From Acidobacteriaceae bacterium (GTDB lineage Bacteria > Acidobacteriota > Terriglobia > Terriglobales > Acidobacteriaceae), in the NCBI GenBank assembly GCA_030041435.1, contig JASHNW010000017.1, positions 1-64,000 on the forward strand: 64,000 nt of DNA. The letters run 5' to 3'. Shown here piece by piece: positions 11,177 through 14,648 of this stretch (position 1 is its first letter; each line of letters begins with the position of its first letter). Both the position numbers and the translations under genes were made by a program. The notes beneath the pieces were generated by a model that was given only the letters and a program-made list of their open reading frames with translations, did no database searches and had not been told where the DNA came from.

Positions 11177-11968
11177 ATGAGCGATGTTGGCGCCCCGCGC
11201 GTCTACCTCTCCGAGGGCTTCCGCTGGGATGAGCAGCGAGCCTATCTGTTTGACATCGATGGAACGCTGCTACGACACCGCGACCGGGTTCACGTCGACG
11301 CTTTCTTTGCGAGCGTGCGGGCCGTGATGGGCCGCGAGCTGGCGCTGGACGGGGTGACGCTGTCGGGCAACACCGATCCCGGCATCCTGCGCGATGCGTT
11401 TCTGCTGGCAGGGGTGGAGGACGGCGCATGGCGGCCGCATCGGGAGGACATGCTGCAGGCGATGTGCGACCATGTTGCGGCGCGGCGAGCTGAGTTGATG
11501 CCGACGGTGATGCCCGGGGTCGAAGCGACGCTCGAGCATCTGGAGCGCAAGGGCGCGCTGCTGGGCCTGGCAACGGGCAACCTGGAGCAGATTGGCTGGC
11601 TGAAGGTGGAGAACGCGGGGCTGCGCTCGTGGTTCAGCTTCGGCGGCTTCTGCGACCGCTTTGAAGTGCGCGCGGACATGATCGCGCATGCCGCGGCCCA
11701 GGCGCGGGCGATTCTGCAGCTGGACGCGGGCGGGCACGAGCCCGGGCTGGAGGAGACGATCTGCGTGGTGGGCGACACGCCGTTTGACATCGATGCCGCG
11801 CGCGCGAATGGCCTGCCGACCATTGCGGTGGCGACGGGCCGCTCTTCGTTCGATCAGCTGATGGAGCACGGCCCGGCGGTATGCACGACAACGCTGGCGG
11901 CGCTGCTGGAAGCGAGCTTGCCGGAGCTGGCCGATGCGGGGGCGGAAGCGCGAGGCCATGCTTCGTAG
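11177..11968 (+). CDS. HAD superfamily hydrolase (phosphoglycolate-phosphatase-like)
   Basis: A 263-residue haloacid-dehalogenase-type phosphatase. Motif I is LFDIDGTLL (nucleophile Asp26, acid/base Asp28), motif II lies in GLATGN, and motif IV is VVGDTPFDIDAA. An alpha-helical C1 cap occupies about residues 35-120, as in Gph-type phosphoglycolate phosphatases. Its cytoplasmic location is inferred from the lack of a signal peptide. The gene end overlaps the start of the secretin gene by 11 bases, which implies translational coupling. The substrate cannot be deduced. Confidence 0.87.
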   Translation: MSDVGAPRVYLSEGFRWDEQRAYLFDIDGTLLRHRDRVHVDAFFASVRAVMGRELALDGVTLSGNTDPGILRDAFLLAGVEDGAWRPHREDMLQAMCDHVAARRAELMPTVMPGVEATLEHLERKGALLGLATGNLEQIGWLKVENAGLRSWFSFGGFCDRFEVRADMIAHAAAQARAILQLDAGGHEPGLEETICVVGDTPFDIDAARANGLPTIAVATGRSSFDQLMEHGPAVCTTTLAALLEASLPELADAGAEARGHAS

Positions 11969-13853
11969 CCTGGCGGCATGCGTCGCGCTGACGCTGGCCG
12001 TGGCCACCTGCGCGGCGGCGCAGGAGGAATCCGCTGCTGCGGCGGCGGTGACTCGGGCAAAAGCCAAAGAGCAGCACGTCTCCCGGCAGCAGCGGGATGG
12101 GGCGCAGAAGCTGTTTCTGGAGGGAGCCAGGGACATGGAGCGCAAGGATGTGCGCGCGGCCAGCGTTGCCTTCGAGCAGGCAGCCGGTCTGGATCCCGGC
12201 AATCGGCGCTATGCCCTTGCGGCGGAGGTTGCGCGGCAGCACCTCGTCGAGGGGTTGATCCAGCAGGCGGACAAGGACAGAATCCTGGGCCACGACGACG
12301 AGGCCCGGGCGGCCATCGCGGAGGCCTTCCGCATCGATCCGAGCGACCCGATGATCGCGCAGCACGCCGACGAGCTGGCGAGCGACAGGCTCGCCGAGGC
12401 GCCGGCGGTTCGCTCCGACGGCAATGGACTGGCAGCGCCCATCGTGCTGCAGCCGAAGCCGGGTAAGCGCAGCTTCCACCTGCACACGAACACGCGCGAG
12501 CTGCTGCGGCAGGTGCTGAGCGCATACGGCATCTCACCCACGCTGGACGATTCCGTGGGGGCGCAAACCGTCCGCTACGACGTGGACGACATCGATTTTG
12601 AGCAGGCCGAGAAGACGCTGGGCCTGGCGACGGGCACGTTTCTGGTGCCGCTCGACCCGGCGCGCGCGCTGGTGGCGAAGGACACGAAGGAAAACCGAGC
12701 GAAGTATGAGCGCCAGGCGGTGGAGACGATCTACCTGCCGGGCATGACGGCGGAGGACCTGACCGATCTGACCAGCGTGGCGAGGCTGGTGTTTGCCGCG
12801 GACAAAGCGTCGGCGACGCCCGGCCAGATGGCGCTGACCGTGCGCGCGCCGGTGGACGACCTGACTGCGCTGAACGCCACGGTGGCCGACCTGCTGGCAG
12901 GGCGGAGCGAGCTGCAGCTGGACGTGCGCATGTACGAGGTGGACCGCACCAAAGCGGTGGAGCTGGGCGCCATCCTGCCCAATCAGACGACGCTGTTCAA
13001 CGTCTACTCCGAGGCCTCGAGCATCCTGCAGAGCAACTCGAGCCTGGTGCAGCAGATCATTGCGAGCGGGCTGGCGGCGCCGGGCGACTGGGAGGCGATC
13101 CTCGCGATTCTGGTTGCTTCCGGGCAGCTCTCGAACAGCATCCTGACCAGCCCGTTCGGGGTTTTTGGAGGGGGCCTGAGCATGACGGGAGTGGAGTACA
13201 GCGGCGGATCGCTCAACATGCAGCTGAACTCGTCGGATGTTCACTCCGTGGACCAGATGCAGCTGCGCGTGCTGGACCGGGACGAGGCGGTGATCAAAGC
13301 GGGTGAGCGGTATCCCATCGAGACCTCGAGCTATTCGAGCCTCGGCGCCTCAACCTCGCTGGGGATTCCGGGACTGTCGACGGCGGGATTGTCGAGCACG
13401 CTGCAGAACCTGGGGGTAAATCTTTCCTCGCTGCAGTCGGCGGCGACCGAGGCGATTCCGCAGGTGCAGTATCAGGACATCGGGCTGACGCTGGATGTGA
13501 CACCGCGCATCGAGAGCCAGAGCAACCTCTCGCTGAAATTCGACCTGAAGCTCAGCTCGCTGGCCGGATCGACGATCAACGGCCTGCCGGTGCTGGACAG
13601 CCGCGAGTACCAGGCGATCACCTCTCTGGGCGTGGGCCAGAGCGCGGTGCTGGTGAGCACGCTGTCGCGCCAGGAATCGAACGCGCTCACCGGCATTCCG
13701 GGCCTGGCCGACATTCCGGGCTTCGCGGCCATGACGAACAAGGACACGAACGTCGATTACTCGGAGCTGGCGATCGTGATCACGCCGCATCTGGTGCGCC
13801 GGGCGCGTATGGAATTCGCCGAGCAGATGCACCCGATGCCGCATCAGCCGTGA
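11958..13853 (+). CDS. secretin-type outer-membrane protein with TPR-like N-terminus
   Basis: A 631-residue exported protein of the type II/III secretion and type IV pilus secretin family. Signal peptide ~1-22; helical TPR-like region ~40-130; STN/N0-like domain ~150-235; a further ring domain ~240-330; and a C-terminal secretin core containing VQYQDIGLTLDVTPRI and IPGLADIPGF, ending in ELAIVITPHLVRR, a hallmark of GspD/PilQ. I prefer the ATG at 11958, which overlaps the upstream stop; an in-frame ATG at 11934 adds eight residues. No other secretion or pilus gene is nearby, so its partner machinery is elsewhere or absent. Confidence 0.85.
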   Translation: MLRSLAACVALTLAVATCAAAQEESAAAAAVTRAKAKEQHVSRQQRDGAQKLFLEGARDMERKDVRAASVAFEQAAGLDPGNRRYALAAEVARQHLVEGLIQQADKDRILGHDDEARAAIAEAFRIDPSDPMIAQHADELASDRLAEAPAVRSDGNGLAAPIVLQPKPGKRSFHLHTNTRELLRQVLSAYGISPTLDDSVGAQTVRYDVDDIDFEQAEKTLGLATGTFLVPLDPARALVAKDTKENRAKYERQAVETIYLPGMTAEDLTDLTSVARLVFAADKASATPGQMALTVRAPVDDLTALNATVADLLAGRSELQLDVRMYEVDRTKAVELGAILPNQTTLFNVYSEASSILQSNSSLVQQIIASGLAAPGDWEAILAILVASGQLSNSILTSPFGVFGGGLSMTGVEYSGGSLNMQLNSSDVHSVDQMQLRVLDRDEAVIKAGERYPIETSSYSSLGASTSLGIPGLSTAGLSSTLQNLGVNLSSLQSAATEAIPQVQYQDIGLTLDVTPRIESQSNLSLKFDLKLSSLAGSTINGLPVLDSREYQAITSLGVGQSAVLVSTLSRQESNALTGIPGLADIPGFAAMTNKDTNVDYSELAIVITPHLVRRARMEFAEQMHPMPHQP

Positions 13854-13893: not shown

Positions 13894-14280
13894 GTGGCAG
13901 TGAATGGCCGCTTCCATCTCCGCACCCGGCACTCGATGCATGGCGGCATGCGGTGCGCGGTGGCTCTGGCGCTGACCCTGACATGGATGACGACGGCAGT
14001 TGCAGCCTGCGCGGCAGTGACGCCCGCGATGCGCTGCCACGGCATCGACATGCCGTGCTGCCCGCCTTCGGGCGCGAACCATGCGCGCTGCGCCGCGGCA
14101 CAGTGCACCGAGCAAATCCCGCAGAAAGCGGAGACGGCGCCTCAGGCGCCGGTGCTGCAGCCCTCCTCCACGATGCGGTCCCCTGCAACACTGCAGGGGG
14201 CTGCTGGGATCCGCGAGCTGGCTTCGGGCCTGCGCTTCCAGGCTCAGGTCTTTCGACTAAAAGACGATTTCCGCATCTAG
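13894..14280 (+). CDS. small secreted Cys-rich hypothetical protein
   Basis: A 128-residue protein that I do not recognise by family. Residues ~20-38 form a signal-peptide-like hydrophobic stretch ending AVAAC; an internal ATG at residue 19 could be the real start. The mature part has closely spaced Cys/His ligands (CHGIDMPCCPP, then CAAAQC), followed by a Pro/Gln-rich tail without Cys. This looks like a soft-metal-binding exported protein, but that is inference. GTG start at 13894, 41 bases after the secretin gene; the metallothionein-like peptide gene follows 81 bases later on the same strand. Confidence 0.55.
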   Translation: MAVNGRFHLRTRHSMHGGMRCAVALALTLTWMTTAVAACAAVTPAMRCHGIDMPCCPPSGANHARCAAAQCTEQIPQKAETAPQAPVLQPSSTMRSPATLQGAAGIRELASGLRFQAQVFRLKDDFRI

Positions 14281-14361
14281 ACCTCGACGTGTGTCTCGCG
14301 CTCGATGGCGTGCGCCTGTGCGCACGCACGCCCGAACCTTCACACGGAAAGGAATCCGATC

Positions 14362-14541
14362 ATGAAATCGAAAATGATGGCTCTGTTTGCCGTTTCGCTG
14401 TTCTCCCTGTCCGCACTGGCGGCCACCGGCGCGAGCTGCTGCGGGAAGAAGGCGCAGTGTTGCCCGGGAAGCTGCTGCACGGCTGATTGCTGCCAGCAGA
14501 CCAGCTCGTGCTGCCCCGGCGATTGCTGCGCACACAAGTAA
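14362..14541 (+). CDS. exported metallothionein-like peptide with six CC pairs
   Basis: A 59-residue precursor. Residues 1-20 make a clean signal peptide ending ALA; the remaining ~38 residues carry twelve cysteines, all as CC pairs (ASCCGKK, QCCPGS, SCCTAD, DCCQQT, SCCPGD, DCCAHK), spaced five to seven residues apart. This density is comparable to metallothioneins, but adjacent-pair spacing plus a secretion signal is unlike the cytoplasmic bacterial SmtA type. The ATG at 14362 follows GGAAAGGA at a good distance, supporting translation. A soft-metal or redox role in the periplasm or outside is inferred. A heptamer array begins two bases after the stop. Confidence 0.78.
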   Translation: MKSKMMALFAVSLFSLSALAATGASCCGKKAQCCPGSCCTADCCQQTSSCCPGDCCAHK

Positions 14542-14543
14542 AG

Positions 14544-14571
14544 CAGCGGATAGCGTGCAGGGAACAGGGTG
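14544..14571. repeat. heptamer array after the CC-pair gene (4 units)
   Basis: CAGCGGA, TAGCGTG, CAGGGAA and CAGGGTG follow one another without gaps, starting just beyond the stop codon of the CC-pair peptide gene. Confidence 0.65.
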
Positions 14572-14620: not shown

Positions 14621-14648
14621 CCTGATCCCTGTTCCCTATACCCTGTCG
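14621..14648. repeat. inverted heptamer array before the phosphodiesterase gene (4 units)
   Basis: CCTGATC, CCTGTTC, CCTATAC and CCTGTCG are the reverse-complement version of the CAGGGTA-type units and end two bases before the ATG at 14651. With the array at 14544 they face each other across 49 bases. Confidence 0.65.

Follow-up and report, generated by a model that had tools for sequence, protein, structure and literature searches.

A conserved two-gene cassette of Acidobacteriaceae: a paired-cysteine peptide behind a candidate nascent-chain metal sensor

Do bacteria keep periplasmic metallothioneins? The question is raised here by a short gene in a stretch of 64,000 nucleotides from an Acidobacteriaceae bacterium (the window, meaning that whole stretch), and it brings with it three others: whether the gene encodes a real protein, how its translation may be controlled, and which ion its product might hold.

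The paired-cysteine peptide

The open reading frame at 14362-14541 (+) encodes MKSKMMALFAVSLFSLSALAATGASCCGKKAQCCPGSCCTADCCQQTSSCCPGDCCAHK, a peptide of 59 residues (the CC peptide) whose 12 Cys all lie within six CC pairs, separated by gaps of 5, 3, 3, 5 and 3 residues; its mature part is a CC-x5-CC-PG[S/D]-CC unit, present twice.

14362..14541, + strand: CC peptide gene, 59 aa (sequence, homologue alignments, dN/dS)
14362..14421, + strand: probable Sec signal peptide, MKSKMMALFAVSLFSLSALA (inspection; the K-start and A-x-A recur in homologues)
14437..14529, + strand: twelve-Cys region, (CC-x5-CC-PGx-CC) twice (sequence; all six pairs in 5/12 window-genus peptides)

Judged by eye, the N-terminus has a K-rich start, a hydrophobic core and an A-x-A site (SALA followed by A), and the gene is preceded by an SD, AAGGA, at 14349-14353. 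An alternative in-frame start at 14305 would give 78 aa; the SD and conservation favour 14362 and support it as the start. The original prediction had described a peptide of twelve Cys in six CC pairs with a signal peptide, a good ribosome site and a family that could not be named, and had proposed the CC spacing in relatives as a check. Reading of 14362-14541 bore out the cysteine pattern, the SD and the signal-like N-terminus agree with the description, Pfam and NCBIfam supply no name, and homologues with the CC pattern were found, in part with fewer pairs.

The CC peptide is coding, conserved among a set of soil bacteria and under purifying selection. Twelve Cys among 39 residues would all fall into exact pairs with an exact probability of 9.6e-5, about 1e-4, and did so in 14 of 200,000 shuffles. 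Pairwise dN/dS among homologues is 0.08-0.59 for ten pairs from the window's genus and 0.07-0.35 in the sister clade (pairs where it was computable); because these values lie well below 1, we take the peptide to be a protein under selection. Its Cys codons are silently variable, with 150 TGC and 29 TGT across 23 peptides. A chance or non-coding ORF is ruled out by the dN/dS, the pairing odds and the silent Cys codon changes.

Cys content differs among the homologues of the window's genus, where five of twelve peptides retain all six CC pairs and the rest have fewer, and the CC pattern is poorer in the ars-linked peptides. Sister-clade peptides are shorter, with three CC pairs (for example ATTVASCCGEPDCCTGSSCC), and their six Cys are invariant as CC-x4-CC-x3/4-CC in 14/14 aligned. 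The AlphaFold model of the peptide shows no fold (pLDDT 53). The peptide search matched 20 of 200 genomes at E<=0.01, of which we kept ten with a partner gene (the window's own genome twice) and G177 as a distant relative; L012, L014, L015, L017, L019, L021 and L022 were checked for Cys-rich frames alone and then left out, and L020 and L023 also lie outside the set.

No family in Pfam or NCBIfam matched the window peptide at E<=1, and 14 homologues searched against Pfam returned only two weak, unrelated families; assignment to a described metallothionein family was dropped, as no curated model matches. Bufferins are peptides of the DUF2282 family encoded alongside an MNIO enzyme (DUF692), and the Pfam scan gave no DUF2282 match to the CC peptide homologues. 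A literature search on vicinal Cys, ArsM and exported metallothioneins, of a kind that misses most subscription papers, found no published description of this family. From its sequence, a metallothionein-like role as an exported metal or thiol buffer is plausible for the CC peptide.

The upstream partner and the two-gene cassette

Directly upstream on the same strand lies a second gene, whose product we call the partner.

13894..14280, + strand: upstream partner gene, 128 aa (ORF list, alignment; paralogue and relatives)
14035..14106, + strand: codons of the partner Cys motif (C-HGIDMPCCP-...-C-....-C), proposed metal or metalloid sensor (alignment)
14248..14277, + strand: codons of the partner C-terminal VFRLKDDFRI, putative site of stalling or slow termination (codon comparison, 23 loci)

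The partner starts at GTG 13894 (alternative ATG 13936). Its N-terminus is hydrophobic and is followed by the motif PCCP...C...C; a linker of variable sequence then leads to the conserved end, VFxLKDDLRI. It is probably an exported protein. Across 19 others, identity to the window copy is 25-46%. The CCP and the next Cys are invariant among 22 aligned partners, and many partners of the window's genus carry His and Met ahead of the CC (by eye; for example MRCHGIDMPCC). At 23 loci the last ten codons read V-F-x-L-K-[DE]-D-[LF]-R-I, with seven positions changing synonymously only, two conservatively (D/E, L/F) and one freely; the partner of one further relative ends in V, and VF-x-L-K-D/E-D-L/F-R-I/V holds in all 22 aligned rows. 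The linker from the last motif Cys to VFxLK is 47-57 aa long (mean 50.7, sd 2.1, n=22) and variable in sequence (median pairwise identity 27%, n=22), and the last motif Cys lies 58-68 residues from the C-terminus in 22/22. In the AlphaFold model (pLDDT 61) a single N-terminal hydrophobic helix, 3-27, is followed by coil. By analogy with CutF and CruR, a nascent-chain sensor would combine a thiol motif, a probable export signal and an extreme C-terminus that is conserved and set at a fixed distance, and we infer that the partner may act as one.

Twenty members of the partner family gave no Pfam match below E 0.05, and PF11162 (DUF2946) was not among the matches of these 20 partners at E<=10 with HMMER filters on. 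The window's own genome gave 0 matches to DUF2946 at E<=0.001, with the control detected in Caulobacter. RAPP, PPP and proline-rich arrest motifs are absent from the partner C-termini in the 22 aligned rows.

The partner and the CC peptide form a two-gene cassette: behind every one of the 28 distinct intact partners, a short, probably exported peptide rich in Cys is encoded on the same strand (25 counted automatically; L071, the window copy and L077 by hand). In L077 the peptide frame continues beyond the Cys region, and the G195 partner, split over two contigs, stands outside the 28. Of the original prediction, the exported paired-Cys product of no known family is supported; it missed the upstream partner, the intergenic RNA, the second copy in the genome and the arsenic and copper-enzyme neighbours found in some relatives. 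That second copy lies about 71 kb off on the same contig, on the opposite strand (G000:C80:85074-85652; L002, L084; peptide G000:C80:85076-85231, minus strand), and has a different Cys layout, most like that of the ars-adjacent cassettes L068 and L070. Its partner (L002 1727-2074) is related to window 13894-14280, and both own-genome partners end in VFRLKDD[FL]RI.

A partner profile search matched 28 of 398 family genomes. In 25 of them, spread over five genera, the partner is good; the other three are G723, whose copy is degenerate, and two marginal matches left out, G169 after reading and G646 after the motif filter. Within the window's genus a good partner is present in 9/12 genomes, one of them being G195 with its split gene. 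In G723 (L166/L151) the partner frame is broken and motif residues are altered, as in a decaying cassette. A partner search of 200 genomes matched 31; the cut was set at about E 1e-5, and of the weaker matches we kept only the motif-bearing G035 and G141. Spread of the cassette beyond Acidobacteriaceae was rejected after searches of 396 phylum genomes, in which there was no strong match outside the family and non-family rows reached E 9e-5 or weaker (L080 and L082 were read and then left out; L081 and rows weaker than the own-genome match were left out). All 20 loci from a scan of named genomes are labelled as Acidobacteria/Acidobacteriaceae or their genera, including Granulicella, Edaphobacter and Silvibacterium. 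A plasmid-borne cassette was also set aside, one partner (L068) having given no match against plasmids.

Most loci of the window's genus share their surroundings; between clades few flanking genes are in common among the 20 loci compared, the exception being a four-gene block that L060 and L071 both have 2-6.6 kb upstream of the cassette. In the window, a secretin-like gene (Pfam Secretin; 11934-13853) lies directly upstream of the cassette, as it does in six relatives of the genus, and read-through transcription from it into the cassette is possible. A diverged cassette in a further genus (G177; L100 8962-9572) adjoins a NuoI-like gene, by eye, and consists of a partner-like protein ending in PVYVLNRVFRI, then a three-CC peptide.

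The RNA between the two genes

The intergenic region of the window copy is predicted to fold with the SD of the CC peptide in a stem.

14282..14293, + strand: 5' arm right after the partner stop, CCT...CGTGTG (MFE and centroid fold)
14308..14327, + strand: central G+C-rich hairpin, intergenic (fold; RNAalifold consensus hairpin at the same place)
14341..14353, + strand: 3' arm, CACACG...AAGGA, with the CC peptide SD (fold, duplex test)

Intergenic lengths are 68-187 nt, the mean folding z against dinucleotide shuffles is -2.40 (23 loci), and TARACCTC...GTGTG is largely conserved among 11 loci of the window's genus. Control of the SD by arm pairing is well supported for this genus, not for the window copy alone. 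The arm-to-SD duplex beats shuffled 5' arms (p<=0.05) at 9/12 of the genus's loci, and cognate arms reach -14.28 vs -12.36 kcal/mol for swapped ones (permutation p 0.0004). As a control, 0/34 ordinary neighbouring gene pairs, with start codons guessed from SD positions, pass the duplex test (Fisher 2e-7 for genus against controls, with related loci treated as independent); the loci share ancestry, so the duplex p values do not come from independent cases. Pairing-preserving changes are visible by eye in L002 (CAGTGTG/CACACTG) and in L070 (CAATGTG/CACATTG).

For the window copy alone, neither the arm duplex (p 0.083) nor the fold (z -1.40 and -1.75) is significant, 63/100 shuffles have an SD opening energy as high, and the mean paired probability of the SD is 0.43. 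SD opening energy stands above shuffles (<=4/100) at just 10/23 loci. In the sister clade 2/11 loci pass the duplex test (Fisher vs controls 0.056), and swapped arms are nearly as good as cognate ones (p 0.117). RNAalifold, run on a MAFFT alignment in which the 5' arms are out of register, recovered the central hairpin only, with no double-sided change.

In L071 (9671-9857) an inverted-repeat stretch has grown the intergenic region to 187 nt, with a local hairpin still over the SD; in G177, CAATCTC follows the stop and GAGATTG lies at the SD, and the predicted minimum-energy fold pairs CAATCTC elsewhere. Just 3' of the CC peptide gene, an inverted repeat, AGGGAACAGGG / CCCTGTTCCCT (window 14559-14569 and 14627-14637), is not repeated exactly elsewhere in the window and is possibly an mRNA 3' hairpin. 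A known RNA element was rejected, Rfam's two matches lying over this downstream repeat with scores far below gathering. No promoter or terminator was recognised in the scan.

Proposed control, candidate ion and known systems

The reading that fits best is a periplasmic thiolate trap for soft metals or metalloids under CutF-like translational control, to which we give even odds. Computation shows a coding, conserved peptide, its one-to-one pairing with gene 1, the conserved C-terminus and spacing of the partner and the SD-arm pairing of the genus; that the proteins are exported, that they bind metal, that ribosomes stall and which ion is the ligand are inferred. Gene 1 (13894-14280) would give a short-lived leader protein that is exported co-translationally, such that PCCP...C...C, ~60 residues behind, reaches the periplasm while the C-terminal VFxLKDDLRI is at the ribosome catalytic centre. 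A thiophilic metal or metalloid bound by the Cys motif in the periplasm would then slow the last translation step or termination. Going by the usual ribosome footprint, a ribosome held at the gene 1 stop would cover the next ~11-13 nt, which is the 5' arm, and with this arm covered the SD of the CC peptide would be freed and gene 2 translated. The product, an exported CC peptide unstructured without metal, would trap the ion in the periplasm via vicinal thiols (CC-x3-CC).

For the ion, arsenic is suggested by a few neighbourhoods. The search covered 47 locus records, in which several loci appear twice; 4 records have ars genes nearby, representing 3 distinct loci: two adjacent (L068, L070) and one, with acr3 and arsR, 6.5 kb from the cassette (L057). 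In L068 (JASHVU010000342.1) a divergent arsR precedes the partner and CC peptide, which are followed by arsM, a MIP channel and an ArsC-like protein; arsM scores 358 bits vs a cut-off of 263, and neither the MIP channel nor the ArsC-like protein reaches its cut-off. The gene directly upstream of the L070 cassette (JASHNS010000039.1) belongs to the ArsR family (84 bits vs a cut-off of 55). In the remaining records of the 47 no ars gene was found, bar a weak resemblance to ArsM in L067 (111 residues at 31% identity). ArsM exceeds its cut-off in 107 of 150 family genomes; since it is so common in the family, adjacency and not presence counts as the clue. By eye, the cassette-linked ArsR proteins carry CVC, which from sequence we take to be in the place of Cys32/Cys34, given as the site of R773 ArsR (PMC11868830).

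Acidobacterial ArsM proteins (L167-L196) themselves have a CC-x3-CC tail, such as CCGPTCCN, in 18/28 ORFs read from the 30 best-scoring loci, and the looser CC..C pattern in 20/28; the spacing is that of CCPGSCC, CCTADCC and CCPGDCC in the window. We recognised no literature on these tails. A specific form of the proposal is a long shot, namely that Acidobacteriaceae have a nascent-chain sensor of arsenite or a similar soft ion, an arrest leader with a proline-free VFxLKDDLRI end, which frees the SD of a CC-x3-CC peptide that is exported as an arsenic or soft-metal sponge; if true, no earlier leader of the kind would, to our knowledge, sense a metalloid or control a natural tetracysteine peptide.

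The same cassette may instead be a copper or general soft-metal buffer with Cu(I) as ligand and the arsenic neighbourhoods incidental, to which we give a chance a little short of even. Both characterised leaders of such a layout, CutF and CruR, respond to copper, His and Met precede the CC in many partners of the window's genus, and ars genes are absent near most cassettes. A Cu/Zn superoxide dismutase gene (L067 1252-1800; Sod_Cu E 1.2e-40) lies 182 nt downstream of the L067 peptide on the same strand. This SodC is, however, the only copper protein among 30 ORFs flanking 11 cassettes (Pfam, E<=1e-5), and the only one there recognised as a metal-linked protein of periplasmic type, with zero copper-handling families besides L067, and most cassettes have no neighbouring metal gene at all; the cassette lies within or adjoining ars genes at two loci, and vicinal CC pairs are an As(III) ligand type too. 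The same 30 ORFs include no MNIO/DUF692 or DUF2282 genes; one beside L056 encodes a cytochrome c protein. Both As(III) and Cu(I) are candidate ligands, and the three neighbourhoods (L068, L070, L067) are all compatible with a trap for soft ions in general.

Plain translational coupling, in which the partner is an ordinary periplasmic protein (for example a metal carrier to the CC peptide) and the stem couples the genes without sensing, is on the unlikely side. An SD-sequestering stem near the upstream stop would suffice for it, and the partner's invariant Cys would fit; yet conservation sits in the Cys motif and the C-terminus, and the linker that joins them varies in sequence but hardly in length, which suits a nascent-chain sensor, and the lack of a predicted fold in the partner (pLDDT 61) is less expected for a folded carrier. 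Improbable, too, is a redox or disulfide peptide, oxidised in the periplasm and serving to buffer thiols, as a structural knot or as a bioactive peptide that is secreted, rather than as a metal ligand: adjacent Cys pairs can form vicinal disulfides, twelve is an even number of Cys for an oxidising compartment, AlphaFold shows no fold (pLDDT 53) and the superoxide dismutase beside L067 would suit oxidative stress, but the varying Cys content in the window's genus would be poorly tolerated by a fixed disulfide knot, the partner has an invariant CC of its own, and the ars linkage also speaks against it.

If the thiolate trap under leader control is real, the partners of Acidobacteriota would join the few nascent exported proteins known to sense metals as a second family, to which the searches found no tie with DUF2946. 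Their C-terminus resembles neither the RAPP nor the poly-proline stalling motifs, and they would be linked to a minimal exported thiolate peptide. Even without the leader idea, the CC peptides are a conserved, probably exported Cys-pair family that the family libraries searched do not recognise.

Like SmtA/BmtA and MymT, the CC peptide is small, Cys-rich and without other fold; unlike them it is probably exported, has adjacent CC pairs only and has no Pfam/NCBIfam match. The CC-x3-CC spacing in the window is that of the ArsM tail (CCGPTCC). The engineered CCPGCC tag is also close, tetracysteine tags being described as binding biarsenicals; ArsM is a cytoplasmic enzyme and the CCPGCC tag is synthetic, and the similarity to the CC peptide is one of short motifs, not homology. 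SecM-type arrest peptides have an exported leader, a conserved extreme C-terminus and a downstream SD in a stem. The partner would share these three features and differs in being without R-x-P-P-like arrest residues; it would sense through its Cys motif and not through the state of secretion. Relatives of the SecM type are treated in PMC12992588 and PMC10987492.

CruR of Bordetella pertussis (DUF2946) is reported to respond to copper by repression, using termination by Rho (PMC9426467). As in CruR, the spacing from Cys to C-terminal motif is near-fixed (45 residues in CruR vs 47-57 here), and the protein is exported (probably so for the partner), heads an operon and is predicted to be poorly structured; unlike CruR, the partner has no RAPP or DUF2946 match, and its Cys pattern differs (PMC9426467).

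CutF, the Rhodobacter capsulatus cutFOG leader, is described as an exported nascent-chain copper sensor, with intergenic regions of CutF-like loci mostly <100 nt (PMC9973294), a length matched by the cassettes here; the terms 'arsen', 'metallothionein' and 'acidobacteri' are absent from the main text of that paper. Set against that description, the partner is without a DUF2946 match or a proline-rich C-terminus, has CCP..C..C instead of CxxxC, and precedes in most loci a CC peptide of 41-59 aa, not a multicopper oxidase; the cassette was found only in Acidobacteriaceae. From profile search, we would call the cassette CutF-like in layout and not a shown member of the family. As with CutF, a small, probably Sec-exported protein with a Cys motif and a conserved C-terminus stands directly upstream of a putative exported metal protein (PMC9973294). 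A CutF-like stem-loop over the downstream SD in the short intergenic region is supported for the window's genus (9/12 loci), but not for the window copy alone (p 0.083), and weakly for the sister clade (2/11).
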